From: Polytrichum commune | Taxonomy: Eukaryota > Streptophyta > Polytrichopsida > Polytrichales > Polytrichaceae | Assembly: GCA_950295325.1 (NCBI GenBank) | Contig: OX485803.1 | Span: 60,837,554 to 60,901,553, forward strand | DNA length: 64,000 bases | Direction: 5' to 3' | In this document: piece after piece, positions 218 through 61,260 of the stretch | Layout of the letters: each line of letters begins with the position of its first letter | Position numbering within the stretch: position 1 is the first letter of the stretch | Translations under genes and position numbers: made by a program | The notes under the pieces: model-generated | The model's input: the letters and a program-made list of their open reading frames with translations, nothing else | What the model was told of the DNA's origin: nothing | The model's database searches: none

Positions 218-998
218 TCGCCAAGCCCCTCCTGCTAGTAAACAGCTGACCATTTTCTACGGAGGGCAAGCCCATGTATTTGATGATGTTCCTCAAGACA
301 AGGTTGGAATGCATGGTTTCATTTATTGTGATTTTTACACTCATTACATTGAAGGACAGTGATCTGGAAATGTTGTTGGTACATCAATTTTGTGGATATA
401 ACCTGTGTGGGAAATGTTGTGGGAATGAATTTAACCTGTCAAAGTGTGGTTTCCATATCGTGCAATGTATGCAACAAAGGTTCTATATGTGCTTGAGTAT
501 ACTTCTCATCAAATCAAATAATTGGACGTAGAATGTCATGTTGTTTCATTTGTTAAGGTCTTTATCTAAGTAGGTTGTCACTGTCATGCATGTTCTGGGG
601 AGCATACAGTGAAGCATGGACAACAACAATCCTTTCTTATATGTTGTCAAGGATTGGAATAGTGAAGAGATCTTTCTATTGATTTTTTCTTACTATCTCT
701 TGTTATGTGAAGATCGTTTATTCACTAATCTCTTTTCACATGTAAAACAGGCGGATGCAATTATGGCATTGGCAGGCTCAAATGGGAGGTCCTGGTCAAC
801 AACTTACTCACCTCAATCTAATCCGAAGGTCACAAACTCATTAAGTGATTGTTCCTTATCAGCATTAGAGAGGGAGAAAGGGGGGAGAAAGGCAAGTCTG
901 TACAAAGCCGAGGAGGGAGCCTAGCCCTATCTTCTGAGGTACAAACATTGTTGTGGGGACTATCACAGAATGGTACTGGCTCAGGTCGTCCTACATGA
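218..998 (+). CDS. TIFY-domain protein, TIFY8-like, 3' part only (upstream exons outside window)
   Basis: The gene is partial: its earlier exons lie left of the window. Exon 218-302 (85 nt, phase 2 entry after a TGCAG acceptor) encodes LTIFYGGQAHVFDDVPQDK, a TIFY motif. It ends AAG before GTTGG. The next exon starts at 751 after AAACAG and encodes ADAIMALAGSNGRSWSTTYS, the second half of the TIFY domain. Read straight through, this frame stops at 922-924. The paralogue at 42.1 kb instead continues into a conserved VQKLLWGLSQ tail. The equivalent VQTLLWGLSQNGTGSGRPT followed by TGA is present at 939-998 in another frame. Removing 892-938 as a GC-AG intron (donor AAG|GCAAGT) joins the two exactly. 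No Jas motif is seen, so it is not a typical JAZ. TIFY8-type proteins are known to bind NINJA and connect to TOPLESS co-repressors in the nucleus; that role here is inferred from family. It could alternatively be a frameshifted pseudogene. Confidence 0.8.
892..938 (+). other. Putative 47-nt GC-AG intron in the TIFY gene
   Basis: The donor AAG|GCAAGT is the known strong context of plant GC-AG introns, and the acceptor is pyrimidine-rich (CTATCTTCTGAG). Excision removes the in-frame TAG at 922-924 and joins codon AAG (889-891) to GTA (939-941) in phase 0, restoring the tail shared with the paralogue. The paralogue has no intron here. At 47 nt it is shorter than usual plant introns, so an insertion that broke the gene is the main alternative. 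Confidence 0.5.
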
Positions 999-3085
999 TG
1001 TTTCACAATCTCTTCTTATTGTGCGCCACCTATTGAGGAGAACAGATGAGGTGAACTATCTTTGCTTTATACTCACATCTTAGAAATACAGCACTCTTCA
1101 TCTTTTGAGACGAAGTTCACTGCTGAGTATATTCAGAGTTCAGTTCAGATTCTATTTGTGTAGCATGTATGGAATACTGGTTAAATTTGGTCATTATGTT
1201 GTGCAGAAGTTACAGTCTTCCTCCTGCCATTTTCCAGCAAGTGCCTGTGGTACAATGATATTCACTTCCCAGATTTGTGATGGAGAGGCAGCTTCAGGTC
1301 TGGAGACTCTTCAGAGAAAGCAGTCTGATTAGTCAACATACATCCAAGTTTTTGTTTGGCCAGATGTACCATAACATAGAGTACAGTGGCGTGGCACCCT
1401 CACCATAGAAATTCAAGGGAGCCTTATGACCTAGTGAATTGGAGGCTTCTTTTTTAATATTTCTTTAGAGTCTGCTTCAGATAGAGGTCACCATTGGTGC
1501 TGTTCTAAATTGCTCATCTTCAGAGTGCCCATCCAGCATCAATAGTTTAGGAAAGTGTTCATCAGGGCTCTGGGAAGAGTGATGTGAACTCAGCACAACC
1601 AAAATATGTATTTTTTTGACCATGAAGGTCACATGCACTTATGTACATTTGTTTAATCAGGGCAAGGAAAAATACTCTGGAAGTGAATCTGGTTATGCTT
1701 GCAACATGGTTTATGTTGCTGTTTGATCAAAGTCTTGAGTTGTGAAGCATCCATCCATTGCTAACGGGTTGTAGAAATCTGGCGTGATTTGTCAGGGGCA
1801 CAGATAACTGGTCAAACAAGTCTTGAATGTGGTGTTGAAACAGGGGATGAGATAAGTTACGGAGCATGCAAAGTGAAGAGTAACTTTGTGGTTGTTGGAG
1901 GTCACAGGACTTGCCATATACCAGTGATAACTACCATGATGCATGGTGAGGTATTTTTAATTCTATATATGTATATATTGAAAACTGATGCCATAAACAA
2001 TGAAGAAAAGGACACTCCCACAGGAAATTTCATGTTGAGACGCAGGGGGTCAGAGAATTGTTTGCATGGCAGCTATTGGCCAGACTAAATTCATCAATGA
2101 ACAACTTTTGTTTGGCTGCACGCCTCTGTCCACATGAGATGCTGAGAAATGCTTCATCCTTGCTCCATGAAGTTAATAGTGCTCATTGTCCAGGGTTGAA
2201 TTTTGAAACTCGCGCTCACTAAGTACAACATGACTTTATTTTCTACCTACTGTGGGACACCTAGACCTCCATTTATGCTCTTCATCAAAGGCAGCTATTA
2301 AAAGTGTTGTAGAAGTTGTTTGCAGGAATCTTGTGCACAGAAAGAGTCTGGGAGCAATTGAAAGCCCATCCATCAATTCGCACCGTCCCAACAATTTCGA
2401 GTGGTAACGAAGATTACTCTGCCTACACCTGCTTAATTCATCTTTGGCTTGAACAGTTCTACTTACCAATTATCCCACTGTCAAATATTTGCTCAATAGT
2501 AGAACCAAATTCTGATGAATTTGAGATTGAACTCCCAGGATCACAGCTCATATTTCTCTACTTACAGCAAGTTCTGCAGCTTCATTATATGGTCAACCTG
2601 TAGCTATGGTGTGTCCGAGTTAGATCTTCGTCTGAGTGCTTGAAATCTCAAATGGCAGGGTTCTAGCAGAGTTTCGATCCAAGCACCCAGAGCCATGGGC
2701 AAGTAGTGGTGGTAGCTGGCAGCCACCTTTACGAACTGTTTCATTGAGTGTTGACTTCCACTGGTGTGGAAAATGTATGATGATCGTACATACTCTTGGT
2801 TTTGGGTACGCTTGTCTTAACCCTTAAAGGTGGAACTAAATTTTCCCATAATTGCCTACAATGCTTCAGTCCAATTCAACAGCTTATGTAAGAAAATTGG
2901 CACCTCTTATGGTAGATCTGACCGTATGGATGGTAACTTTGTGAAGTTAGTATTGTTCACACCAATCTTTAGCCATCCACGTGTCCAAAAACATAAGATT
3001 ACAATATAAATGTGCACGTTGGTATTGTTGGGCGACAGGGCTTGCCCGTACAAAAATGTCCGTCTTGTCCTTTAGGGGTAAAGGT
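999..3085. other. 3' flank of TIFY copy, no recognisable gene
   Basis: The first few hundred bases probably contain the 3' UTR of the TIFY gene. Scattered short ORFs (for example 1789-2088 and 2316-2603) show no family motif I can name and no splice-joined frame. I see no repeat family from elsewhere in the window. Confidence 0.4.
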
Positions 3086-12488: not shown

Positions 12489-12990
12489 AGGGATACTTCA
12501 CACACGAGACTGAGAGCCCGTGACCATTACACTTCAAGCACTCTCATTGGTGGAAAAGGCGGAGCCGGTCCAAGTTCGTTGCTTCACACTACGCTTGAGG
12601 GACCAACGGAGTATGTGAATGCAAGATGGATGTAAAGTCTACATGGATTCCTACATGGCATCAAATGGATCATATTTTATGGTCATTTGGATTATTTTCA
12701 AAAACCACTTCTTGGAGGTAGGCCTAACACAAAACCGGGAGACCATGGCGTTCCGAACGCTCACAACTGTTGGTTTATTCTATTTGATCATGTGTGAGAA
12801 CCCGCATGAATAAAAATTCATTGAAATAGCATTTAGTTGAGGGCCGGTCACATATGACTGCACACTACACTCGAGAGTCCGTGACCACACTACATGATTT
12901 TAGAGGTGCGTTGGGATGGCCTTTGGACACTTTCTTTTGGGCTCTCACAATTTCATGGTCACGGCTCTTGGCTCGTGTGTGAAGTGGCCC
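12489..12990 (+). mobile_element. PIF/Harbinger-like MITE, family D, copy D1
   Basis: Left end ATACTTCACACACGAGACTG and right end GGCTCGTGTGTGAAGTGGCC, followed by TTA, match the ends of copy D2 (57875-58382). The interior is nearly collinear with D2, including CTCTCATTGGTGGAAAA, GGATTCCTACATGGCATC and GGAGGTAGGCCTAACAC. It is non-coding, about 0.5 kb. The left terminus is slightly decayed (GGATAC instead of GGGCCAC). Confidence 0.7.
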
Positions 12991-13789: not shown

Positions 13790-14383
13790 ATTTGTTTAGT
13801 TCATTCAACTAACGTAATACGACACCTCAATTATACGACGCATTTCTTGTCAACCAAATTTTGTAGTGTTAATTTACCCCAATGATACGATTACGGCATT
13901 CATAATATGACATTTTTTAGACCTGATTTGTCATGTATGTGGTGGGATCCACACTAAGGATTTGTCTTGGGATTGGGGAGTACATGGAGATTTCCTCAAT
14001 GGCTTGATTTAAGTTAGCTCAAGTTGATTGTTTAAAACCTTGGTTTGAAGACACACCTTGCACTCTTGAGTCTTTGGATTTGGGTAGGGGTTGAAGGGTT
14101 TGGGGATCGTTGGGTCTGCAAACTAGAATTATGAAGTTGTTGATTTCTCTTCTTGATTCGAAATTTGTCCTCACACATGAACCTCACATCTCTTTAGATT
14201 GGAAATTTCTATCCTTGCCAACCTATACCCCTGAATTTGCCCATGCCACTCTTCAATTTCTTGGCTCTCGAGGTGAAGGCAATCTTGAGTGGCGGATGCT
14301 TTTAATATCGGTTATAATTTCAACAATTACGGTGTTGATGACCACGTTTGCACACAATTTGGTAAGCACTCACCTCCTTTGCA

Positions 14384-15639
14384 TTGGTTATGGCACCAAG
14401 AGATGTTTACAATATGGATGCGACTGGTTTATTTTATTGTGCCCGACCAAACAAGACCCTAAGCACAAGGAAAAATTTGTGGGTGCAAAATCAAAAGGAC
14501 CGTCTCACTCTTGTTCTTGTTGTAAACACAACAATCAGGGACGAGTTGAAATTTGTGATTCTTTACACATCTCCATGCCCAAGATGCTTTGAAAAGTGGT
14601 TGCCAACACATTATGTGTGGTGGTTGCAAAACCAAGCGGCATGGATGACATTGTATGTCTTTGACAGTTGGATGATGAGCCTCAATGTACACTTCAAATC
14701 TCAAAAGTGGAAGGTACCTTTAATTATGGATAACCTAGCTACTCATTCATTTAAGCATGTTGGTAGGGGCGATCCATTTGGTTTTTCAACCTTGCAATTG
14801 TGCAATATTACTATTGCTTTCTTACCACCTAATGTTACAAGTGTGATACAACCCTTGGATTAGGGAACAAGTGGTACATTCAAAGTTTAGTGTAAGAGAA
14901 AGCTTTGGAATGCATTCTCTCTCAATTTGCTTCTTCTACTACTCACCATGACTTGAGGACGTAGTGCCTAATGTAAGGCAAGCTAGGGCTGGGGCGAACA
15001 AACCCGTACACTGGTTCCTTGGAGGCAAGGGTTTAGGCATCCAACAAGGAACGAGTGTATGGGTTGGTTCGCCCAAATCGGCAAGCTAGTTTGTGATGCT
15101 CTCAAGTGTGGAGAGAGATGATTCCCAAATTATATGAAACAACTAGAGGATTTCCAAGATTTTACTTGCATATTGGAGTGCTCATTTTGCCATGGATGGT
15201 GAATGTGAGAAATTGAGAGTGAAAGAAGCAGCAAATGAATTGGCAAGTTTCATTTCCTCTTTGAATCTTGGAAGTGAAGAATTGCCTATTGAAGAATATG
15301 TGCAATTGGCAAGGGAGAAAATTGTTGATGCATAATACAACATGGTTGAGTTGGTGGATTTGGCATGGGGTAGAAAAATCCATTTGCGGTTTAGATTTGA
15401 ATGAAGAGCCAATCGAGGGGAATGATGTGGATGACTGGCCAACACCAATAATCAAGCTCGCTCATGCCCGTGAGTATGCCCAATTACTACCAAATTTTGC
15501 AATGGAGCATCCTTCAGAGTTTTCAATTGTAGATGTGATGAGTATGCAATCTTTTATCGATAAATTAAGTAGGATGTCAGTTGCCAACATCAACAAACAT
15601 CATCAAAAGACAATATATTCTTACTTTCATAGTGTGTGA
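14384..15639 (+). pseudogene. Tigger/pogo-like transposase relic (DDE domain and C-terminal tail)
   Basis: In the frame of 14384-14863 the product reads NMDATGLFYCARPNKTLS, then IMDNLATHSF and FLPPNVTSVIQPLD. These are the three conserved blocks of the pogo/Tigger DDE catalytic domain, each with its aspartate kept. Where the family reads QPLDQG, this copy has TAG in place of the glutamine codon (14861-14863). The next residues GTSGTFKV end in another TAG before RKLWNAF. Further on, frames around 15170-15320 and 15400-15639 give a C-terminal tail (AREYAQLLPNFAMEHPSEFS, NINKHHQKTI). Several stops, a frame change near 15330 and a nested 93-bp element show it is dead. I found no clear N-terminal CENP-B-type DNA-binding domain. 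Confidence 0.8.
14987..15079 (+). mobile_element. 93-bp hairpin MITE, Mutator-like, copy 1
   Basis: Ends GGCTGGGGCGAACAAACC and GGTTGGTTCGCCCAAATC are inverted repeats, and the interior (GTACACTGGTTCCTTGG against CCAACAAGGAACGAGTGTAT) extends the pairing so that nearly the whole element can fold. It is flanked by perfect 10-bp duplications GGCAAGCTAG (14977-14986 and 15080-15089). Target duplications of 9-10 bp point to Mutator-like transposition. It sits inside the Tigger relic, so it is younger. Confidence 0.85.
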
Positions 15640-20566: not shown

Positions 20567-20794
20567 CAATGTCCGGGGAGATTGTTGGGCATAATCGGTA
20601 GATATCCTAGTGTTTCCAAGTCCGACCGGTTACACGTTGACATCTTTTAGTTTTTCCTTGTTAAATTGGGGTATGTTCCATAAATTCCTCCATCATGATG
20701 GGTAGTTTTCTTGAAGTCTAGAATCTCAACCGGTTATTTATCTCAAACTCAACCGGTTGATATGTAACTAGTAGCTGATTCTCCCCATTCAATG
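20567..20794 (+). mobile_element. hAT-like element, family A, copy A3 (best preserved)
   Basis: 228 bp from CAATGTCCGGGGAGATTGTT to TCTCCCCATTCAATG. The ends are inverted repeats (CAATGnnnnGGGGAGA). It is flanked by ATGCCTAT (20559-20566) and ATGCCCAT (20795-20802), 7 of 8 identical. It contains two exact AACCGGTT octamers plus a diverged one. It has no coding capacity and is a good reference copy for the family. Confidence 0.85.
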
Positions 20795-21353: not shown

Positions 21354-21579
21354 CTATGATCAGGGAGAACTGGCAGTTAGTTACATATGAACCGGTTGAG
21401 TTTGAGGAATAACTGGTTGAAGTTCAAGACTGCAGGAAAATTAGCTATCAATTTAGAGGAATTTATAGAATATGTCCCAATTTAATGAAGGAAAACCGGA
21501 CGATGTCAACATGTAACCAGTTGGACTTGCAAACACTAGGATCTCAACTAGTTATGTCCAAAAATCTCCCCGATCATTG
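21354..21579 (-). mobile_element. hAT-like element, family A, copy A4
   Basis: Reverse-oriented, from CTATGATCAGGGAGAACTGG to ATCTCCCCGATCATTG. Flanks are GCCTGCCC (21346-21353) and GCATGCCC (21580-21587), 7 of 8 identical. Only 13 bp separate it from copy A5, and their target duplications overlap. Confidence 0.8.
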
Positions 21580-25440: not shown

Positions 25441-25938
25441 CTTGCTTTGTTGCGTTGCGGTGCATGAATGCATCATAGGATGCCGTTCGAGCGCCACTAG
25501 TAGAAATTTGGTACCCGCATGACACGGCCATCTAACACGAAATGACCATGACGACCAGAACGTGGACGCTGTAAAATGTGAGGTCATCTGGATACTTTGT
25601 TTCCTCGTTGTAGAAAAACAACAATCTGAATGAACTCGGTCCCAACCTATGAGGAGGTGGATGGTGCTGAGCAATTGACGTGGGGATGCACTTGCTTTGT
25701 TGCGTTGCGGTGCATGAATGCATCATAGGATGTCGTTTGAGCGCCACTAGTAGAAATTTGGTACCCGCATGACACGGCCATCTAACATGAAAATAACCAT
25801 GACGACCAGAACGTGGACGCTGTAAAATGTGAGGTCATCTCGATACTATATTTCTTCGTTGTGGAAAAACAACAATCTGAATGAACTCGGTCCCAACCTA
25901 TGAGGAGGTGGATGGTGCTGAGCAATTGATGTGGGGAT
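25441..25938 (+). repeat. Tandem duplication, two 250-bp units
   Basis: CTTGCTTTGTTGCGTTGCGG starts at 25441 and again at 25691, and the units are nearly identical (only scattered substitutions), so the duplication is recent. Several ORFs on the - strand duplicate with it and are shadows. The second unit runs into family K sequence. Confidence 0.85.
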
Positions 25939-27424: not shown

Positions 27425-27650
27425 TAACAATGTCGTCTAAGGACTCAGAACCCCTTCAAAGTGCCACGTCCGAGAGAGAGAGAGTTGATGATATAAACTT
27501 GAGTAAACTATGGGCAAAGAGTCCAACTTAGTGATGAGCGTATGCAAAATTCTTGGGCGAAGCAGGTGATGGAGAGTGAGAAAAAAGTGAGAAGACAATT
27601 ACCTCAGAGTGAAGCAAATTAAACTATAGGCAAGAGTGGCGATGAGCAAA

Positions 27651-27878
27651 GTCCTTGAGCGACTAGGGCTTGGTCGATTGAGTCGAAAACTAATGAAGCC
27701 TATAGTTAAGTGAAACTATTGTGTCCATGTGAGAGGGTGGAATAGAGGGTTACCTGAGAAAAAATCCTTGAGCGACTAGGGCTTGGTCGATTGAGTCGAA
27801 ATCCAATGAAGCCTATAGTTAAGTGAAACTATTGTGTCCATGTGAGAGGGTGAAATAGAGGGTTACCTGAGAAAGAAT
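27651..27878 (+). repeat. Tandem duplication, two units of about 113 bp
   Basis: TCCTTGAGCGACTAGGGCTT occurs at 27652 and 27765, followed by almost identical text including GTGAAACTATTGTGTCCATG. Non-coding as far as can be seen. Confidence 0.8.
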
Positions 27879-30490
27879 CTGTTGAGGGAATAGGTCATGT
27901 GAAAGGCATGAGCAGTGTGAGGAAGTTGAAAGGCCAAGAGTCAACCCGAGAGGAAACCATTGACAATTGCTAAGGATGTGAGAGGCAGAGCGAGAGGAAA
28001 GAAAGGAAGAAGATAAGTTGTATAGATAACCTAAAATTATAGTTACAGTAAACATTATAGTCTTATGATAATGGAATCTACCAAGTTGGTCAAATTAGAG
28101 AACCCGATCAACTGAAGTGATGAGAAAATACTTTTGATCAATTGATTGGTGGAGGAACTGAGATAATAAGTTTGAGTAAGTGTGTTCAAATTAGGGTAAA
28201 ATTTGGATTATCAAAGAGATTAAGGCATAAGTTGTCCTAGATCAATTAGAGTTTTTATATGGTTACATAGTCTAGAGACGAGATCTTTGAGCATGAGATG
28301 CAAATTAACCGCATCAACTATTGTCTTGTGTGTTACCTTGGTTGTTGTTGTTGTTGTTGCAGGTTGTGCAGGGCAACCAAGACTATAGCTTGACCCTAAT
28401 AATCATTGTTAGTTGCATAAGTTGTGAGTAATGATTAAAACTTGGAATTAATAAATAAACAATTTGTCTTGTATTGGAATTAACCTTGACCAATTAATGA
28501 AAGTGTTGATGTGATTTGAAGATGCATTGGCCAATGGTTACCAAGAAAATTGTGATACTTATAGACTATTGTTCTACAATCTCGTGACGAGATGGAAACT
28601 TACAGCCACTGACACACATACAATATTGAATGAGAAATGTTGAGAGGAATCCTTGAGAGAAAGGAGAGTAAAAGATGATTGAGTGATGTTTTAGAGTGAA
28701 GATAGCAGCCTTATTGTCTAATTAATGAACTATAATGTGACAAATGCCTATAATAGACACTAGTAAAGCCTTCATTGAGAGTCTATACCCTGGGTTTTGG
28801 TTATTTCAGTCATAGCAAAAACTTAACTACAATCACCTACTGGAATATAGGCAACACTCCCTTGCCCAGACATTGGGGCCTACGTCTTTATCTGGTCATT
28901 GGCAAACAAGCTTTTCATGTTGGTGGCCATCTTGCCCCAATTTTTTTTCCCTCGCATTTACTCCAATTTGATAAGCATTGTTACACAATATGTTGAGTGG
29001 GTTTTGCAATCGGGTTATTGCCATACTAGTTCAAAGAGTTAAATTGCTAACTACCCGCAAATTTTACAAGACATCAAATACAAGATTCCACCAAGATGAT
29101 GACCATTGTAGGGTTTATCTAGTTTATTTTTTATTCAAGCAGGTTGGTCCTTCATTTGGGCACTAAAATATGGGCCACATTGTTGTTGCTAAAAGAGGAT
29201 TTATAATTCAAAGGGTACTAATCTGGATGAAAAATAGGCTTGGGGCGATCACACCCCCTTACATTTTGTAACCACGTGCGATAATGGGGTATTTAATGTT
29301 TTTTTTTGGGGGGGGGTAATTTATGCACCTCTCAATATTTTTTTACCTCCCTATTTGTATATAAAACGCTACTTTGAAATATGTTTTTAGCACCCTATAT
29401 TTATCTTTTAATTATTTAGAGGTTAATTTCTGGCACAATAATTTATTATAAATCGTACAAGTACCAAATAGTGGACGGACTACTATAACATTGCGAAACC
29501 AACTATGCAAGCAACAAACATTCCATACCATTCAAATTGTCATTTATTTGGGTTCAATTACCGGTACCAATTCTAAATCATTCAAATAAACCATTCAGAC
29601 ACAACCAATAGCACTTGGATACTAGTTAAAGGGTCCCACATGTTTAGTGTCGTTGCAAAACCCAATGGCCGTTGACGAACGCCAACACATTTTTTCCCAA
29701 AAAATCCCCACAACATCTCCCTTCATACTTATGCGCTTGATTCAAATTTGGAAAAAACTACACACTTCTTCATCCAGGTAGTCAAACCCATAAGTATTCT
29801 ACATATCCTACTAGACACTTTCAAGGAGATCCTATGTCTATGATTTTTTTTTTCCTACTGATTACTAAAATGGAGGAATTATCCACCACCTTATTTTACA
29901 TATAATCATGTAGAGGACATATGGTAGATCTAACAAAATTATAAATTTTACCCTAAATGAACTAAATTGATCCTATTTTTTATCTCACGTGATTTTTTGA
30001 AATTCCGATAGTCGCCTCCCCAAGAAAATAAGCATGGCCTTTGCACTGCCTGCTATTTTTTTTTTTTTTTTTTTGGATATAATGTGACATGCGCAAACCA
30101 TGGCATATCATGCATATTCTTGATTATGCACTTTCACCTATCACACACCAACTTTTATGTCACAATATTTCTAAGTGGTTGTATATATCCAAAAATTACA
30201 TTACAAGATGTGTTGACATCCTCTTTCAAATACCAATAAGAGGAAACTATATATATATATATATATATAGATAATGGTGATCATGCTCAGATTCTCATTT
30301 GGACGTTTTTGGGTGTAGAATGCAATCACCATAAGGTAGATGGGTATTAGGTGGCTTGTTTTCTTAATTAGACCTCTAGATTTGATTGGTGTGCGGTTTG
30401 GTGAGGATCAATGAGCAAACATCTTAATGACACATGTTTAGAAGAGATGGACTGCATCTTGAATTATATACAATTGCTCTACACTCAATA
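27879..30490. other. Intergenic, no gene recognised
   Basis: Contains a (GTT)n run near 28341-28360, a G run near 29309-29317, a T run at 30057-30074 and (AT)n at 30248-30269. The ORFs at 28775-29166 carry no known domain. Confidence 0.4.
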
Positions 30491-31054: not shown

Positions 31055-33715
31055 AGTTTATAGTATGATGATTGTATGTGTGTAATGTGCAGAGTAATCT
31101 TTGTGCAGTGTAATGTATGCATAGTGTACTATATGCGTAATGTATGTGTAGATTGTTCACGCAAAATTTCTACTACTTATAAATAAGATAGGGTGATACA
31201 ATTATAATTATGTGACTCTAAAATTTATAAAATGATAGGGTGTTAGAAAATACCATCCAGTAGAAATTTAGCTACTTATAGGGTGGAAAATATTCAACGA
31301 AGGAAGGTAAATACCCCCTCGTTACATAGGGGGTTCTTGCACGTGTATACATAAATCAAGTGTAGGTGTGCCCCCTGTGTCTCATCATAGAAGTTGGAGA
31401 ACATGTGAACGAACCAAATAACACCCACAAACCTTATGGCATCCTTGAAAGTTGAAAGTAAGGTATTTGTACCCTAATACAGTTTCCATCACTAGTCTTG
31501 CATGCATGAGCTAATTATGGTTGTGTCAGACGATGCAAAAGTTGCCGGCTTAGGGATGCACATGAGTAATTTACCCATTGTAATTCTCAATGTTTTAGTT
31601 TTCCAATGTTACATAGTAGTAGTATTTAAGTGTTACACTATTACACTATAGAATTGATTCATAATCAAGATAGGTGTACATGGTAGATCAATGTTCTCAA
31701 TTTTTTTCTAGAGGGTCTCGATAATAAAGAGCAAGGTGCTTTTTATTGTCATTTAAAAGCATAAAATATTCATCATCTCCCCTAAGAATATGCGGATACT
31801 GTAGTTGGAATAAATTATGGGAGGAAAGAGATAGATGTTTGAATCCCATTGCCCGCAATTGCATTTCTATAACACTAAAATATCATTTTTCACACATATA
31901 TTCTATTTTAAAACGCCTTGAATTTTTTTTAAAGCATACAAGTCCCTTGAGTTTCTACTCAACTTTAAAACACTGAAACACTGAAACATTGGAACATCAA
32001 AACATTGAATGTGCATAAACTGGGAAGGATTGAACATTTACATGTATATGATCCTCGAGGTGATATGCTTTGCCAATTATGACATGACATGACATGACCA
32101 TATTTAGCTCCTGCATTCAAGACTTAGTGACGGGAACTATGTAGGGGCATTTGTAGCCTTTTGAGTATAGTTTGCCCAACATGTATATGTACGAATGGAG
32201 GAATGTGCCTTGAATGCACACTTTGAGCTCTCCAACAACATTGATTCCCAAGTATGTATATCCAACTACATAGTCACAACTCGCAACTGCATTATGGACA
32301 AAAGGGCGCACATGCATCCATGGAGAGAGAGACACACACACGCACACGCACGCACACGCCGTACAGATAGAATCGAAGCTGTGATTGCAACTGAATAAAT
32401 TATTGACCTGACTTGCTTTGAAATTATTGCCGAGTTTCCCCGACCATATCTCCAAAACTAAGGAAAAGAGTGAATCATGGAGACTATGGAGGAGCTGCTG
32501 GTTGTCTGCTAGCTATAGCTGCACACCACCACAGCTACTCAGAAACTCGTGCGGATGTTGTCGGAAGTGGAAGCCCACATTCGAGAGCCTCTAAGGAAGG
32601 AAAGGGGGGGGGGGGGGGGGGGGGGTCAGGTTTGCAATTATGGGGTCTAGCTCCAAAAAAATTTGGGGTCCAAAACATCCCTTCGTGAGTCTCGCTTTCA
32701 GGCTCAACATTGGGCTCACGCAAGTTCGAAATCTGGTTTTTCAAATTGGGTGGAACCCGCATTTATCTTGACCACCAAAACCCTGATGGGAAAAGAAAAA
32801 AAGTGACGCCACGTGGACGACACTCTAGTTCACATGTCAAACGCACAGAACCTAACTTAAACTCCTTGAAACCATTCTCGACCGATAAGGTCGCTTGATT
32901 TTGAAGTTTCTTCGATCTCAAACCCTGGTGTAGAGAACACACTACACACTAGAACTCGAGGGCACGTGACCATCGTCACCCAAAATCACTCATCGGTCGA
33001 AAACTCAAAGCTACAGCCTTCGGATGAGGTTTTCAAGGCTCTCCACAACTCCACGGTCAAGGCCCTTACGCCATAGCGTAAAGTGACCCTAAACCCACCC
33101 TTATTAGGTGCTTTGCGAACCCCAAGACAAGGGGCCCGACAAACAAGGGCAACCTAGCGGTGGCCACTCTAGCTCATTACACTTGAAATTACACTAGTTT
33201 CTCTTATCTTAGCTTGGCTTGGCTTAGCTTAGCTTAGCTTATATGCTTGAAGCTGAAGCAAGGCAAAGGGACAACACATGTGATGAGTGTTGACATGCAG
33301 GCTCTCACTTCATAAGCCCTGCTGTGCTGTCTGCTGGGGCTGGGGCTGGGCTTGCTTGCAAATGGATTCAACCAAGTTCTTCGTGCCTGCCACTTGACTC
33401 ACTCACCTGCCATGGAAAATTCTATAGACGGCCACACCAAGGACTACCTTCCTTCCTTCCTTCCTTAGAATGTGAAGGCTGGCTGGTCAGACGAAAGGGA
33501 GATGAGTATGTGGGATTAGCCAGCTTTTCCTCCACTCTGCACTGCCTCTCTCAGTGCAGCCATCTGATTTCGCAGCTCATTCACACAGGATTCAAGTGTC
33601 TGGAAGGAGGGGATGCTGCTCAACCACTCACTTTAAGCGTTCAGAGTTATTTATCAAACCTAACTTGAATTTCTTTGATTTTTATTTTTATTTTTTATTT
33701 TTTTGAGAAATTGAA
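31055..33715. other. Intergenic, no gene recognised; 22-nt poly-G run
   Basis: The longest homopolymer of the window (22 G) is at 32604-32625. GACAT pentamers repeat at about 32080-32098 and CTTAG/CTTGG repeats lie at 33209-33240. The 114-codon ORF at 33324-33668 contains low-complexity CTTCC repeats and no domain. Confidence 0.4.
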
Positions 33716-35388: not shown

Positions 35389-35415
35389 TACACATTGCTC
35401 ATGTTGTTTGACAAG

Positions 35416-36002
35416 CAATATCCAGGGAGATTTTTGGGCATAATCGGTCAAGATCTTAGTGTTCCCAATATCAACCGGTTACATGTTGACATCTTCCAAT
35501 TTCCTTTATTCTATGGAAGAATATTCTATAAATCCATCTAAATCAATTGGTAATTCTCTTGAAGTATTGATTTTGAACTAGTTATTTCTCAAACTCAACC
35601 AGTTTATCCATAACTACACTAAATAGTCCTATTAATGTGGGCCACAATAATTTTCTAGAGCCCACGCTAATTCTCATAGTGAGAATTAGTATGGGCCACA
35701 CTAATTTTCAACCCACGTTAAAAGTTATAGTAGAAAATTAGTGTGGGCCATAGTAATTGTTTTCCTAGAAAATTAATGTGGGAGGTTATTTTATTTTGTG
35801 CTACTTTTGTCCTACAAGTAATATTCAATGTGTTGGTTGAAAGTCTTGATGAAGACTTAGGGGAAGACTTGGGGCCTTGGACCCACTTTAATTTCACCTT
35901 GACTAGAAAAGCATTGTGGCGCACACTAATTATCTCCTCACTAATTTTACACCCACACTAATCGGACTATTCATTGTAGGTGTCAGTTCTCCCTGTTCAT
36001 TG
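35416..36002 (+). mobile_element. hAT-like element, family A, copy A7, with nested family F element
   Basis: From CAATATCCAGGGAGATTTTT to CAGTTCTCCCTGTTCATTG. The flanks TTTGACAAG and TTTGGCAG resemble each other if one base was lost. The family text breaks at TAACTA and resumes at GGTGTCAGTTCTCC after the 360-bp F insertion. Confidence 0.7.
35617..35976 (+). mobile_element. TA-flanked MITE, family F, copy F1
   Basis: Ends CACTAAATAGTCCTATTAAT and the reverse complement of CAATGAATAGTCCGATTAGT form a terminal inverted repeat of over 20 bp, flanked by TA at 35615-35616 and 35977-35978. The interior is built of AATTAGTGTGGGCC-type inverted modules. 360 bp, non-coding. Its relative F2 lies at 63461-63803 in the other orientation. 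Confidence 0.8.
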
Positions 36003-38553: not shown

Positions 38554-38561
38554 CTCCAACT

Positions 38562-38758
38562 CAGTGTCCGGGGGAGATTCTTGGGCCTCATCGGTCGATC
38601 GTTTTTGAACCGGTTACGTGTTGACATCTTTCGGGGTTCCTTTATTTGGTTTGGGTAATATTCTATAAATTCCTCTAAAAAGATCAGTGATTTTCCTTGA
38701 AGTCTTGAACTTTCAACCGGTTCATCTGTAACTAGCAACCGGTTCTCCCCATTCATTG
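38562..38758 (+). mobile_element. hAT-like element, family A, copy A8
   Basis: 197 bp from CAGTGTCCGGGGGAGATTCT to GGTTCTCCCCATTCATTG, flanked by CTCCAACT (38554-38561) and CTCTAACT (38759-38766), 7 of 8 identical. It carries an exact AACCGGTT and several close forms. Confidence 0.85.
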
Positions 38759-40263: not shown

Positions 40264-42115
40264 GTGATCATGTGAAAGAGGAGTTATAGCCCTTCAAGAA
40301 TTCAACGTAATGGAAAAACTAAGTTGAAAGGACATGGGTTTGGGTTCCTTGAAAAGGGCATTAGTTGCACTCACGTTTTCGTCTACCATTATCAAAAGTA
40401 GGTCAATCTATACTGTGCATATGGATTCGGAGAGAATCTTGCCTTTGAAAATGTACTAAGTTGTGATTTTTTTTGGTAAATGTCATGATATGAATCTCCA
40501 AGTATGTAAAAAATCACTCCATTTTCACACATGTACCACACTTATGCAAAATTGCTTGAGGCATCTATAACCAATAAAATAAGAGAGTTTACATCTGTTT
40601 AGGAGTGATAGCAAGGAGCAACGGATTCTAAGGAGAATGCCATTGTTTTTTAAATTTTCATGAATATGAAAATTGCTGCAATTTTTGAAGCGTTAAAGTT
40701 TACTAGAACACAGTCAATCTATAGGTTAACTCATAACCGCTCATCTAAATGCTAATTCTTGGCTACAACCATTGTCAAATGATCAAGCCACCAACACACA
40801 AGGTCAAGACATCCATATAAGATCTCAACCATATCAGCACTACAAGTGCCCTAGTGAGCCGTTAACTGGACTTCGGAATGCCTCCAACTTAAGTAAGTAG
40901 CATATGCCAAGTTCACAAGTGAGGAAAGGACAACAAAAAGACACGTGTCAGGATGAGTTCGAATTATGTGCACAAAATGTAGACGCCATTCCAAGCTCAG
41001 TAGCTAACGCAATTAAGAGGGCCTATGTGATCACTTCAAGAGAATAGAATCAACACTTTGACCTGTTACAAATCTTTAGAGATCTACATTGCCCACATTT
41101 CTGAAGATATATTTAAATTGCAAAGAGCATCCAGTTTTCAAATGTGAATGTCAGAATTGATTGTCTCGTTACTACACTACATACTATTTCCTCATAGCCC
41201 ACAGTAATGACCAAAAAACTACTACATGATTATGACTCACTTCTTGTAGATTCAAGGTAATTGTCAAATCACGTAATTTATCTGAAATATTATGATGTGT
41301 TCCAAAAATAAACTAATTCCCTGTAACATGTTGGTTGTGGGAAAGCCTTAATATACATACATCTGGAAGACTCAAAACCCGCAACTCCTGAATAGCCCAA
41401 CACTCTCCACAATTACACCACAGAACCAAATTGAAGCTAAAGACTACATAGACAATGCAACTGGTCAAATCAACAGTGTCCATCTGGAATCCGGTTGTGC
41501 AAAAATAAAGGATTACACCAACAAATGCGTAATTAGTTCCCTGGTCATGCTCCTGAGAGGTTTGATAGTATTCTCCTGTGCTGGTGATGTAAGATTGATG
41601 ATCACTGTGAAAAAGAGTAATGTACCGATAAACCTAGCAACTAGTGAGCGCCTCTCCAAACCAGAATCCCTACAGATATCAAAAAAGTATGTAAATACAT
41701 ACAACTAAGTCATAAATTTCAACTAGAGCTTTTGTGGTGGGGGTGCCACACCAATAGACCCTACCTTATAATACAATTTACCGCACAAAATTGTCACCTG
41801 TGTCTTGACTAATCAGGTTACTTCTACATGACTGCCATTTGCTGCAGTTGAGAAGTCTGTAGGAGGGCCAATACTGCAAAACAAATTCACAATATAAAAT
41901 CAATCCTCCAAAGAAGCCATATAAACCTTTACCGAGGTTGAGACGCAAGAAAAGAGAGGAAATGACATGACTACTTCCAGATGGCGACAAACAAAACAAT
42001 TTTTTTGCTGCAACAGGCTAAAATTCAAGACACAGCTTTTAGGTAAGGTAGGAAAAATTACCTCCTATGCACCCCTCAACAGGTGGTCTCTAATATTGGA
42101 GCCAAAAACCAGTTG
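40264..42115. other. Intergenic and probable 3' flank of the TIFY8-like gene
   Basis: 40935-41075 is a partial family L copy. From about 41.4 kb the sequence is the 3' side of the - strand gene. Short - strand ORFs at 41513-41704 and 41778-41999 may be 3' UTR but carry no domain. Confidence 0.4.
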
Positions 42116-45100
42116 TTATGTATGGCGACTACCCGTACCAGTTGCAATACCATTTTGATTTTGAGATAGCCCCCACAGCAATTTTTGCACCTTCTCTTTC
42201 TCAATCTCTGCAGCTGACAAGGAACTATGATGACTCAAAGAGTTTGTAGCCTTTGAAGTGGGTCGACGTGAGTAGGAAGTCGACCATGACCTCCCATTTG
42301 ATCCTGCTAACTCGAGAATTTTATCTGCCTGTTGTCACATACACACAAGAAACCAACAATCAACTTCATGGTAAAAGTTGTAACAGACATATAATGTAAA
42401 ACAAAGTTGTAAAATGTACATGCAAAGTTATAAGCTAACCTTATCAGGAGGAATGTCGTCATACACATGGGTTTGCCCTCCGTAAAAGATGGTCAGCGGT
42501 CTACAAGCTGGGACAACTTCATGACTGCACAAGATGAATCAAAAACATTTAGACCTGTTACAAGCTGCAAGGGCAATCTCTGATTTAAATAGAGGCACAG
42601 TCATGTCCATGGATAATCAGATGCAAGTATAGCAAATAAGTAAATCCTATACTATTCTAAATTTTGGAATCATTTCTTCCACCAGAGAGCGCAGGACCTA
42701 AGCAATAAATATTATGCCTAGTAATAGGACATCTTTAACCCTAAACCTGCCAATCCTGGACAACAGGTAAAGACAAAGACAGAATAAACTATAGTCATCC
42801 TTAAAGTTTCTCAAAAATGCATGTTTTGGCAGGGACTTTCACCCCATTTTTGACAATTTATAAAGTTCAAAAACTGTGGAAGTGGTGTCGTAACCCCCAG
42901 TTTTGGTGAATTGAACAGGAGGTGTTTGACTTTGACCAAGGAGACAGTTATACAAAATTGAATTCCTTGTCAAACTTTCGAGAGCACCATTTTAGGCGCC
43001 TTCAAAAGTTTGATATGAGATTCATTTTTACATAGCCGTCCTTTGGCCAAACTCATACGCCGCCTCCTTCAGTTCACCAAAATTAGGGTTCCAACACCAC
43101 TTGCACATTTCTTAGAACATTAGAAATTGTCAAAAGTGGGGTGACACTCCCTGCCAAGTCATGCGTTTTTGAGAAACTTTAAGGATATCTCTAAAGACAG
43201 AATAATCTCTGCCATCAATGGTTTTATTGGTTAGAATCAAAAATACCTTGAAAGTGGCATGGATTCAGTGCCCGCATTCCTTGAGCCCATTTTTGGCGGA
43301 CGCGCACTAAAAGGAGAGTCATCACTTGAGCCAGCAGGAGTTGCTGCATTGCTTGGATCGTGTAAAAGCCCGGTTAAAAGTGAACCTTTCAATCCCGTTC
43401 TCGAACCTTCATCAGCTGCGGGTTGAGCCACTTGAGGACTGATCGAAGTTATATTTTCACAGTACAAATTACTCGGGGCCCTTTCCGCCTTTTCTGATCT
43501 CTCAGCACAGGCACCCAGGTGGCTAAGTCCTCGGGTCGAAATAATCCCCACATTGTTGCCACTTTGGAATGGTGGCCTCACCAGTTCTAATATCCTAGAG
43601 TGTGTTTCTGTCGTTTCATTTTTCGAACTTTGAGACAGCCATGCAGGGCATTTATTTGCGGTGCGTGGAGGTTGCATGGAAAGATGAAGACCGTCATTAT
43701 TAGTGCTTGGTGCCCGTTGCTCAACGGCATCAACTTTCATCTTGTCATGCCTTATATACTCGTGCCGAGCTACCTGTAATTTCAAGCACACATGTGTCAA
43801 AAACAGACAAATTCTGCCACTTCTTTGAACCAGCACCAAGCTCATATAAGATTATTGAACACATTTTAGCTCTCCACCCACTTCTCCAAGGACACTAAAC
43901 ACACAATGAACACGAGATGATTAGCAAATCCAAAACAAGGCTGTAGCAAATTGCCTCATAATTTTCAAAGCTTGCATAAATTAATCTGAATCATTATCAA
44001 AGAAAAGATTCTCCCTTTTTTTTTAAAGATCATATAGGTCCCCCCAATTATACAGTTGACTAGTGAACCTAGTATAGTTCACAGAATTTAGGCACATAGT
44101 CTCAACACATGATGTCTTTCTGGTGTCCTTTCTTCAATCCATACCTCACCACACACCACTCAAATAGATGTCCAAATATGACAAATAACCAATTTGGACC
44201 CACTTGCCTTAGCAAGCTTAGACTAGTATAAGCAGAGCTTACATATATAATGAGTAAGGAAGAAAACTATTACATTAAAATCTGCCTAAACTGCAAGTTT
44301 TCATAAACAGAAGTATGTCACATACCTTTGGCAGGCGTGGACTGTCTGCAACCTCCACAAGACGTTGCTGCAATGAATCCATGGTGGTAGGAGACCTCCA
44401 TCTCTTTTCGACTTTCTGTTGGCTATTTTCCACTTCCAGCTTGTAAAATGCACTACTCGTGCGGTGGTGATGCTGAATAGCACCTGCTTGAGCCTGCTGC
44501 AGGGCAACTGCATACAAAATGATTCAAGTTACAAATTTTCCAAGGGGACTCTTAGGCTGTCTGCAGAAATTTCTATGAAGGTCAGGAGCTAAAGACCTTC
44601 ACAAGATAGTGTAAATGAATCACATTCCACAATGGACATCAATAGAGTTATCCATTAACTGAATGGGACTTTTTGTCGGGAGGTCGTCCCCTATTATTTT
44701 CCATTGGTTGCTTTGCATACAAAATGAATGATTTATTTCCACTTGTAGTGCATGCTCTGAGGTAGTGTTTGAACTTGCATGAATAGCTACCCATTTTGGT
44801 TCATTGAGGGCCAAACTCATTTTAGCACCTCTCGGCATGCCAAATATTGTTTGTTCAAACATCCACGCTACTACCTCGAAGCATGCACCGAAAACTTACC
44901 AAACATGAAAGGTGTTTTATGCAAAACAACAGACTCCCGACGAAAACTCATGTTGAGTTAGAAAATAACTCAACTGTCGTCTTTTACTTTCGCCAATAAG
45001 AGGACCACAAGAAACCACCGAAATCACAGAGTCAATACATAGTGGAGTGGGTCTTCTTTCTTTCTAAACCAGGAAGATACACGACAATGTGGACAAGTAA

Positions 45101-57638: not shown

Positions 57639-57874
57639 TCATCCTCCTTCATAAGTTAAGTTAGGGCAGGTGAGGGTGTCAGGGCGACGGAGGTGAAGGA
57701 AGGCTGGTGGGTGGGTGGGTGGGTGGGGCCTTGGATGCCAATCACTCGCACTCGACTCCAGAGCCTGATGACTCGGTGCAATAGAGCCATCAAGTCTTAT
57801 CCCCCTCCCTTCCCTGTTGTGGGTCGAAGAGGGAAGTTACATAACCAGCCTGCATTCCAGCTAGGTTTCACTAA

Positions 57875-58382
57875 GGGCCACTTCACACACGAGACTGAGG
57901 GCCCGTGACCCTTACACTTCAAGCACTCTCATTGGTGGAAAACGCGGAGCCGGTCCAAGTTCGCTACTTCACACTATGCTCGAGGGACCAACGGAGCATG
58001 TGAATGCAAGATGCATGTAAAGTCTACATGGATTCCTACATGGCATCGAATGGATCATGTTTCAAGGTCGCTCGGATTATTTTCAAAAACTGCTTCTTGG
58101 AGGTAGGCCTAACACGAATCTGGGAGACCACGGCACTCCGAACACTTATGATTGTTGATTTATTTATTTTATTTTTTATCATGTGTGAGGATTTGCATGA
58201 ATAGAAGTTCAGTGAACTAGCATTTGGTTAGAGGGCCTGGTCACATATGACGTCACACTATACTTGAGGGCCCGTGACCACACTACATGGTTTTGGAGGT
58301 GTCTTGGGACGGCCTTTGGACACTTTCTTCTGGGCCCTCACAATTTCATGGTCATGGCTCTTGGCTCGTGTGTGAAGTCGCC
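57875..58382 (+). mobile_element. PIF/Harbinger-like MITE, copy D2
   Basis: 508 bp, from GGGCCACTTCACACACGAGA to CTCGTGTGTGAAGTCGCC. TAA precedes it (57872-57874) and follows after one base (58384-58386). It is collinear with D1. Non-coding. Confidence 0.85.
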
Positions 58383-58386
58383 ATAA

Positions 58387-58755
58387 GACGCTTCCAAAAT
58401 CATGTAGCGTGGTCATGGGCCCTCAGTCAAATGTTATTTCTATTCATGTGGGATCCTCACACATGATCAAATCAAATAACTCAATGGTTGTGAGATATCG
58501 GAGTGCCATGGTCCCATGGTTTTGTGTTAGGTCTACCCCCAAGAAGTGGGTTTTTGAAGGTATTCCAAGTGACCATGAAACATGATCTTTTTGATGCTAT
58601 GTAGGAATTACTTTACATCCATCTTGCATTCACGTACTCCGTTGGTCTCTCAAGCAGAGTGTGAAGCGAACTTGGACCCGCTTCGCCTTTTCTACCAATG
58701 GGAGTGCTTGAAGTGCAATAGTCATGGGCCCTCGGTCTCGTGTGTGAAGTGGCCC
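58387..58755 (-). mobile_element. PIF/Harbinger-like MITE, copy D3, inverted and truncated
   Basis: This is the reverse complement of D2 from its CTCCAAAACCATGTAG region to the GGGCCACTTCACACACGAGA terminus, ending TGTGTGAAGTGGCCC before TAA (58756-58758). It lacks the terminal region proximal to D2. Together D2 and D3 form a head-to-head palindrome of about 0.88 kb. Confidence 0.8.
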
Positions 58756-58788
58756 TAAGTTACACTAAATAGTGTAGTCCTAGTGTTA

Positions 58789-59416
58789 GTAATAAATGGG
58801 GGAGGACCAACCACTACACTAAATAGGTAGATTAGTGTTGGAAACACTAATAGTCGACGAAAACGCTAAATGTCAATTGTCTTCATAGTGTTAGAACACT
58901 AAATGTCAACTCTAACACTATTTGTACCAATTAGTAACTTTGAATATTTACAAAAGCACATTTAGTGTTAGATGACATTTTTTTTGTAGATCTTCAAATG
59001 AAGAATTGGAGGTAGAATATGTGAGCCTCATAGAAAATGTAATATGCTAGGAATTTGATATTACAAAATTTAAACTTAATGGAACTCAACTTTGACAATA
59101 CAAAATAAAGACAAAGGAAATTGTAACACTAATTGTACTTTCAAGTGACATTTAGTGTTGTGGGTAACTATTGGCTCTAACACTAATCTTCATCTAACAC
59201 TAATCTACCTATTTAGTGTAGTTACAGAGGAACTGGTTGAGTTTGGGGATATAAAAGCATTCAAGACTTCAGGAAAAGCATGATCCGTTTGGAGGAATTT
59301 AACAGAATATTCCTCAACTTAATAAAGAGAACCCGAAAGATGTCAACATAAAACCAGTTGGACTTACATACATTGGGATCTCGACTAGATATGCCCAAAA
59401 GTCTCCCCAGACACTG
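58789..59416 (-). mobile_element. hAT-like element, family A, copy A9, with nested family G element
   Basis: Left part AATAAATGGGGGAGGACCAA and right part GTTACAGAGGAACTGGTTGA..AGTCTCCCCAGACACTG are the two pieces of a reverse-oriented family A copy. They rejoin if 58817-59218 plus one TA is removed. The outer 8-mers do not match convincingly. Confidence 0.65.
58817..59218. mobile_element. TA-flanked MITE, family G
   Basis: Ends CACTAAATAGGTAGATTAGT and the exact reverse complement at the right, flanked by TA (58815-58816 and 59219-59220). 402 bp. The interior repeats the motif AACACTAA many times. Non-coding. Confidence 0.85.
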
Positions 59417-61260
59417 CTATAAGTGTTTGTGGAAATTTGTGGGCTCCATAAAATTATTGTGGTCCACAATAATAAGATTATTAAGTGTACTTGAGCACTT
59501 TCAAGCCTATTATAAGCAATTTTACAAAGATAGTGTGAACTTTGCAACTTTCGGAACGTGCAAAGCCTTCATGACGATGGGGTTAAGCCACGACACCTAC
59601 AATGATATGTGCAATTAGGTTGCATGTTTACTTATGCAAATTAATTACCATGGGTCAAAACCACATTATAGAGACTTGTAACTTTTTCTATTCATCTATA
59701 TAACAAATCAAAACAAATCAAAAAATCATTCTTGAAGTTTGAAACTATGGTAGTAAATCTTCAAAATAGTGTGGAATGTGGATAAACTAGCATGGGGCAA
59801 CCTTATTACACATATTTGTGTTTGAGCTAATCGATATCTTGTTGTAATCGGCTGAACATACTCAAGGTATATGTCTTTGTTTTGGGCAATTATTTCCACG
59901 TACATATTTAGCCATTGGATTGGCTTGGGAATTGTCTAGTTCACCTGGCAATTTCAAATCACGTACATTATCATTCAAAGTTCTTAAGGTAGAGTTGCGA
60001 AGCAAGTTATAGATAATGAGGTTTCTCTTTCTCTTGAAACAGTGACATAGACTCTCCAAATTTTCAAAAAAATTGATCTTGAAATAGTGTCTATGTTTTG
60101 AGCACAATGTACAATCTCACTGTAATGCATGTATTTTTAACGTCTAATCTTACTCACAAACCTTGTCGTATATGACTTAAATATAGGATTCTACTTCAAA
60201 ACTATGATCGCATAGGGTCCACTTTAACCTCAAAACAATGTTTTTATAGCCTTGGGAGTTACAGGTTAAAAAAATGCACACTAAATTTGAAATATGTGAA
60301 TTCTTTTCTACAATGCTAATTTTAAAATTTTGTTTTGAGTACTACCTTCAAAAGAAGCATGTATGTATTTTTGAAGAACACTAAAAGTAGATAAAATTGG
60401 AAAAGCAATTTGCGATGTTTGTACAAAATAGGCTAATGAGATACTAGATTAGCATTTTCATGGATTTCATATTTGATGGAACCCTAAAGCTCACTATGAA
60501 CTCACCAAATATTAAAAGTATTTAAGAACATGAAATTTGCACGTGGGACCAAATATAGTCATTTGTTGGTGGACGTGCTTTTTAGTGATTTGTTTTGCAG
60601 ACATCATTTTAATATAATTGAGTTGAGTACTTGTAACGGCTATAGAGGTCTCCATGAAAAAAAAATCCTAACGTCAAAGACAACTTGGTACTACTTTATA
60701 GCCTTTCACCAAGGAGTTTGTGATTTCCACATGCATGATCCACTTCGTGATTCGGTTCACCGTGCTTGCACCTATATGTCCTTGGAGTATTTCAAAAAGC
60801 CCGGAGGGAGTTAAGCCACAACACTTAAGAAGCGGTCCAATGTGAATGAGACTGAAAAACTCTCTAATTCAAAAATTGAACTATAGGCGTGGGGGAGGGG
60901 GGGTGGGAGCAAGAGCTGGTCGTTTAATCTTCTTCATCGTCATGTTGGTTACTCTCAAGTCTCTCACCATAGCTCATAGTCGGGAAATTTGTGCCACATA
61001 AACACTCCACTAGACTTTACAAACCGTCTCAATGCATATGGCGTCATATTGAGTCGGTAAGCACACTTGAGCGAGTGTTGAGGTTCGTGAAATCGATGCG
61101 AGATGCCTTATTTTTTGAGGTGCAGTTTCTTGCCCATTATGGTGGGCACACCTAAAAGCTTCCAAAGTGAGCCTGGGACTCGCAAGTTCTCTTGTTCAAA
61201 TCATGTTCATTCCAAGAGACAGGTGCTGGAATTGGGCGAGGGGTCATGATTGGGTGTTAG
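59417..61260. other. Intergenic, no gene recognised
   Basis: ORFs 59358-59618, 59862-60107 and 60530-60814 show no domain. The last is the most protein-like but has no flanking splice or promoter signals that I can support. The left side of the candidate gene at 61.27 kb may reach into this block. Confidence 0.35.

Follow-up and report, generated by a model that had tools for sequence, protein, structure and literature searches.

TIFY8, the non-JAZ TIFY protein encoded by At4g32570 in Arabidopsis, is described as having none of the other domains of the TIFY family and as being present in Selaginella, Physcomitrella and dicots (PMC3885651). For plant introns a functional minimum of 70-73 nt is given (PMC1626468), and the shortest experimentally validated intron mentioned in PMC6310983 measures 56 bp; the latter source attributes about 1.2% of the plant splice-site combinations to GC-AG introns. 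As for acceptors, the order of preference for the nucleotide preceding AG is C > T > A > G, GAG being the least used, and PMC3095350 reports GAG acceptors as functional 'only very rarely' in a moss, in which 14 out of 536 (2.6%) well-supported GAG-containing tandem acceptors were alternative. Here we analysed an insert in the last coding exon of a TIFY8-like gene, for which a 47-nt GC-AG intron had been proposed, against this background.

The two TIFY genes of the window

The window (the whole 64-kb stretch of DNA analysed) is plant DNA according to its gene content, with 41% GC and two TIFY-domain genes separated by 41 kb. The left gene is truncated by the left edge of the window, so that its N-terminal exons fall outside, and the right gene, its paralogue, has additional exons upstream of the TIFY-motif exon. 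The splice sites of both genes were predicted by comparing the two sequences with each other, and gave the following structure:

218-302, plus strand: TIFY-motif exon of the left gene (RQAPPASKQLTIFYGGQAHVFDDVPQDK; Pfam PF06200, E 9.4e-19 on the joined protein), with splice sites predicted from matching reading frames
303-750, plus strand: predicted intron of the left gene, 448 nt, GT...CAG
751-891, plus strand: start of the last coding exon of the left gene, which follows the paralogue collinearly as far as about 880
1051-1206, plus strand: predicted 3'UTR intron of the left gene, 156 nt, GT...CAG, with a donor region that aligns with the right copy
41874-42061, minus strand: predicted 3'UTR intron of the right paralogue, 188 nt, donor aligned
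42116-42328, minus strand: last coding exon of the right paralogue, uninterrupted to its TAA (reading frame)
42440-42524, minus strand: TIFY-motif exon of the right paralogue (sequence match, Pfam and reading frame)

Exon phases and positions are concordant between the two copies, the TIFY-motif exons being 80% identical over 231-305, and the intron that follows them is 448 nt long on the left versus 111 nt at the corresponding site on the right. The PF06200 domain scored above the gathering cut-off of 27 in both joined products (66.9 bits on the left; 53.2 bits on the right, with the query started at the Met in the 43,240-43,851 open stretch) and was the sole Pfam domain found in them at E up to 0.1, with no Jas, GATA or CCT domain. 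We considered both genes as TIFY8-like, an assignment based on domain content and general resemblance rather than on an aligned TIFY8 sequence. A search of solved structures returned one weak match (8t2i_J, Protein TIFY 10A, E 0.02), which carries no weight here. Among possible relatives of the left protein, 27 stretches of viral contigs and 175 of prokaryote genome contigs fitted the pattern, none of them being confirmed in either set, and the string 'WGLSQ' was absent from the literature among the matches listed.

Further exons could be placed tentatively. The probable first coding exon of the right gene (MAESNQPVFRDFLGLG...) lies at about 45402-45130 on the minus strand, with its end near a GGTTCAG/GTAATA donor (here and below, the slash marks the junction), and the right gene would be complete if this exon were joined to 43851-43247 on the same strand. 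Past the 3'UTR intron, a last exon that appears common to both copies would run from 1207 to 1332 on the plus strand and from 41873 downward on the minus strand, with CTGATTAGTCA identical in the two.

As regards the rest of the window, an open stretch at 14366-14860 (plus strand) matches the transposase-type endonuclease domain DDE_1 of Pfam (E 3.8e-12) and presumably belongs to a pogo-like DNA transposon. A family of repeats of about 200 bp, found in both orientations and 70-80% alike (20567-20770, 21378-21579, 35414-35626, 38561-38745 and 59209-59419), looks like a non-autonomous element. Other repeats (12489-12989, 57874-58382 and 58436-58760) are up to 509 bp long and 78-87% identical, one pair being inverted at 57.9-58.8 kb, and two tandem arrays, at 25441-25938 and 27648-27894, have units of 251 and 113 bp in about two copies each. 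Runs of G or C at least six long number 35 in the window, with a maximum of 22 (32604-32625).

The insert and its splice features

The original prediction had read in the left last coding exon a 47-nt stretch bounded by GC and AG, and had claimed that, if this is not spliced, the frame stops early and loses a tail that the paralogue encodes without interruption. This sequence observation is confirmed at base level. Precisely, AAG at 889-891 is followed by GCAAGT at 892-897, the terminal AG is at 937-938, and an in-frame TAG at 922-924 closes the upstream frame; removal of 892-938 gives ...EREKGGRK/VQTLLWGLSQNGTGSGRPT with its stop at 996-998. The paralogue (minus strand, exon 42328-42116) reads without interruption into ...EIEKEKVQKLLWGLSQNQNGIATGTGSRHT and its stop, the tail being EKEKVQKLLWGLSQNQNGIATGTGSRHT. 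The insertion of 59 bp that had been proposed for the left copy is instead a net gain of 53 nt, since the two anchors common to both copies, GAGAAAG and GTRCAAA, enclose 58 nt on the left and 5 on the right. The features of this region, all on the plus strand, are:

880-885: G6 run, where a one-nucleotide frame break can be placed most economically
881-938: insert between the conserved anchors, open in the frame of the tail
892-938: candidate 47-nt GC-AG intron, unlikely to be spliced
892-968: alternative candidate of 77 nt, GC...CAG, which preserves the frame and would remove VQTLLWGLSQ
900-906: direct repeat GTACAAA, first copy, 39 nt before the second
922-924: stop codon TAG read in the upstream frame, 126 nt ahead of the predicted 3'UTR junction
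939-945: direct repeat GTACAAA, second copy, exactly where similarity to the paralogue resumes
939-998: conserved C-terminal tail VQTLLWGLSQNGTGSGRPT and stop, beginning with VQTLLWGLSQ (reading frame and paralogue)

The 7-nt GTACAAA is the only repeat listed in 840-1000, and it occurs in 0.55% of random 58-nt pieces of the window and in 0.32% of shuffles, a comparison made post hoc. It borders the piece 900-938, of 39 nt or 13 codons, which looks like what a small insertion with a duplicated target, or a templated repair, would leave. At E below 1 the insert has no further copy in the window, where no Rfam family reaches the gathering score either, and exact pieces of the insert (21 and 20 nt) had no match in viral contigs or genome contigs. 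No hairpin was found either, the DNA fold of 870-950 being weaker than that of 197 of the 200 shuffles. A transposon source of the insert is thus neither shown nor excluded.

Of the two options offered by the original prediction, a newly gained 47-nt intron or a gene-breaking insertion, the first fares poorly on length, acceptor, branch motif and GC content, and the second is closer to the data. In fact, 892-938 is shorter than both the functional minimum and the shortest validated intron cited above (PMC1626468, PMC6310983), and its acceptor is GAG (936-938), with neither C, T nor A before AG, that is the type rarely used in a moss (PMC3095350). No yUnAy or CURAY branch motif occurs in its 47 nt; this test is not absolute, as yUnAy is found 60 to 12 nt from the end in four of the five predicted introns of the two genes and not in the fifth. 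Its GC content is 55% versus 31-38% in these five introns, all of which terminate in CAG. Two other acceptors lie nearby (TAG upstream at 924 and CAG at 968), and the direct repeat has its edge at 900, not at the proposed donor (892). On these grounds we consider the splicing of 892-938 unlikely.

Some features speak for the 47-nt intron. Its acceptor at 938 is the most pyrimidine-rich of the five compared (13 of the 18 preceding nucleotides, versus 11 each at 750 and 1206, 9 at 968 and 4 at 924), the GC-AG class to which it would belong is represented among plant introns at the frequency given above (PMC6310983), and its removal restores the tail exactly. Frame restoration alone is, however, unremarkable, because, with 20,000 sequences of each kind, a frame-restoring GT/GC...AG pair of at least 30 nt was found in 98.9% when the insert was dinucleotide-shuffled and in 78.9% when random 58-nt pieces of the window took its place. 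The real sequence has 17 such pairs, counted with a somewhat wider enumeration than in the random inserts.

Among the splice features of 892-938, only the donor stands out as unusual: AG/GCAAGT is a perfect GC-type consensus. We scored donors on 8 consensus positions, counting C as T at +2 and with AG fixed at the end of the insert; a frame-restoring donor of 8/8 was present in 0.03% of 100,000 random inserts, one of at least 7 in 0.9% and one of at least 5 in 27%, the criterion having been picked post hoc, once the site had been seen. Leaving aside the two pairs that use donor 892, the 15 listed donors scored 5/8 at most. Across the whole window there are three plus-strand and four minus-strand occurrences of AGGYAAGT. 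Weighing this donor against the features above, we regard a newly gained 47-nt GC-AG intron, with the full tail made, as very unlikely.

The same donor could be used with the in-frame CAG at 968, 30 nt beyond 938, giving a 77-nt intron and the product ...GGRK/NGTGSGRPT, or with a related acceptor such as that of the 3'UTR intron at 1206. The 77-nt version exceeds the plant minimum, ends in CAG, has CTGA about 31 nt before the acceptor and preserves the frame; on the other hand, the most conserved stretch of the tail would be lost with it, its GC content is 51%, a full yUnAy motif is missing and pyrimidines make up just 9 of the 18 nucleotides before its acceptor, so we judge this use of the donor slightly less probable still. 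As a separate observation, joining the donor at 892 to 1207 lets the reading continue for about 41 codons, and an alternative C-terminus is conceivable.

All considered, the acquisition by the left copy of an intron from a small insertion by means of the GC donor at 892, in either its 47-nt or its 77-nt form, seems improbable to us. The direction of the change could also be the opposite, with an ancestral intron lost from the right copy: presence and absence in two copies cannot be polarised, and most of the apparent gains in Arabidopsis paralogue pairs proved to be losses according to a review (PMC2682935). This would still require 892-938 to be spliced, with all its weaknesses, and we consider it highly improbable. 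If an intron did exist, the choice between the acceptors at 938 and 968 would decide whether the WGLSQ tail is made; the 47-nt version would be a freshly gained, record-short plant intron, for which the paralogue without it, 41 kb away, would serve as an internal control. The finding is to be considered ordinary unless a splice junction at 891 exists in RNA.

Reading frame and constraint

A third and simpler option had not been considered in the original prediction. The open frame that encodes the tail extends over 849-998, across the entire insert, so the two halves of the exon disagree by one nucleotide, and the survival of the tail can be explained without splicing. We read by script the region with G-run lengths from 3 to 8 at 880-885: lengths 4 and 7 keep one frame open all the way from 751 to the 996-998 stop, and lengths 3, 5, 6 (the one present) and 8 give no continuous frame into the tail. 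This sequence may be less reliable in the lengths of its homopolymers.

Our preferred account, to which we assign somewhat better than even chances, is therefore a coding insertion combined with a one-base frame break in the left copy. Precisely, the last coding exon of the left TIFY8-like gene would have gained the net 53 bp beside its EK/VQ codons, and the extra DNA would act as a coding insertion of a whole number of codons (54 bp, or 51). The frame would then be broken by a one-base difference in length, most simply in the G6 run. This difference may reflect a mistake in the assembled consensus or a sequencing slip, a segregating allele or a recent real mutation; no intron would be necessary. 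Consistent with this account are the two G-run lengths that open one frame into the tail, the GTACAAA repeat at the edge of similarity, the poor splice features of 892-938 and the low dN/dS on both sides of the insert (see below). Against it, a second event is required besides the insertion, and the perfect AG/GCAAGT donor, with the frequency and the post hoc score given above, is left as a coincidence. Furthermore, chance alone keeps the tail frame open through a 58-nt insert in 28% of the shuffled and 37% of the random sequences, so the coding insertion is favoured only about threefold over a random insertion that broke the gene.

The latter, which was the second option of the original prediction, supposes a length not divisible by three and an open tail frame due to luck, and would leave a TIFY protein with no tail or a decaying pseudogene. 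The frequency of chance open frames just given is compatible with it, and so is the end of the present frame at 922-924. A stop located farther than 50-55 nt upstream of an exon junction usually triggers nonsense-mediated decay. The stop at 922-924 is 126 nt from the predicted 3'UTR junction, and the stop of the tail precedes this junction by 52 nt in the left copy and by 54 nt in the right one (junction at 42062); under this rule, only the 922-924 stop would be likely to send the mRNA to decay. A correct and unspliced sequence would yield a protein that retains the TIFY domain and ends in ...EREKGGRKASLYKAEEGA, with ASLYKAEEGA in place of the lost 19-residue tail.

The divergence between the two copies bears on both accounts. 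Over the 71 codons before the insert, dS was 0.89 and dN 0.21, with a ratio of 0.24 (Nei-Gojobori), and 11 codons of the tail have 5 synonymous changes and 1 nonsynonymous change (dN/dS 0.03); the calculation leaves out at least 4 non-aligning residues past the core of the tail, one codon of exon B of the right copy and the region of the insert. If the left copy had been neutral since the duplication, a ratio of about 0.5 or more would be expected. As judged by comparing the two copies, such values show that both would have been mostly under constraint, and suggest that the left tail has been coding for most of its history; the frame break should thus be either recent or not real. In addition, the exons flanking the insert carry no further lesion in the part within the window. 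An insertion that itself broke the gene must, with flanks so constrained and free of lesions, be young, and we consider it possible but rather unlikely.

Slippage of the polymerase or of the ribosome on the A3G6 run could also shift a fraction of the products into the open tail frame, which a -1 move at 880-885 reaches. The codon register AAA GGG GGG AGA is, however, no standard X XXY YYZ site, and we know of no precedent for slippage of this kind in a plant nuclear gene; we consider it extremely improbable.

With the coding insertion as the preferred reading, the lesson is a methodological one: the openness of the downstream frame through an insert should be tested before an unusual frame-rescuing intron is invoked, given that here a one-base homopolymer difference suffices to reconcile the frames.

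Comparison with known systems

Both products resemble TIFY8 in having one PF06200 domain and no other Pfam domain, and the locus differs from it in that there are two copies in one window, the left one with a 53-nt insertion. The candidate 892-938 is like the plant U2-type GC-AG introns in its donor AG/GCAAGT and in its terminal AG, but differs from them in length, in type of acceptor, in base composition (it is not AU-rich) and in branch motif. Introner-type introns are mobile and present in many copies across a genome; the comparison here covered the 64-kb window, in which the insert is without a second copy at E below 1.

Another comparison is with the potato RdRp case (PMC4974935). Common to both are the extra DNA at an AG/GT-like coding site (AAG/GTG in the paralogue) and a short direct repeat; here, however, the repeat is of only 7 nt (GTACAAA, 39 nt apart) and the new segment of the candidate is no copy of the neighbouring exon. 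There is also a likeness with a small coding insertion accompanied by a frame-breaking homopolymer indel in a duplicated gene: the net 53 bp is one nucleotide off a multiple of three, as in such a case, the G6 run adjoins the insert and the tail frame is open, and the sole difference is a strong GC donor-like site that would be there by chance.
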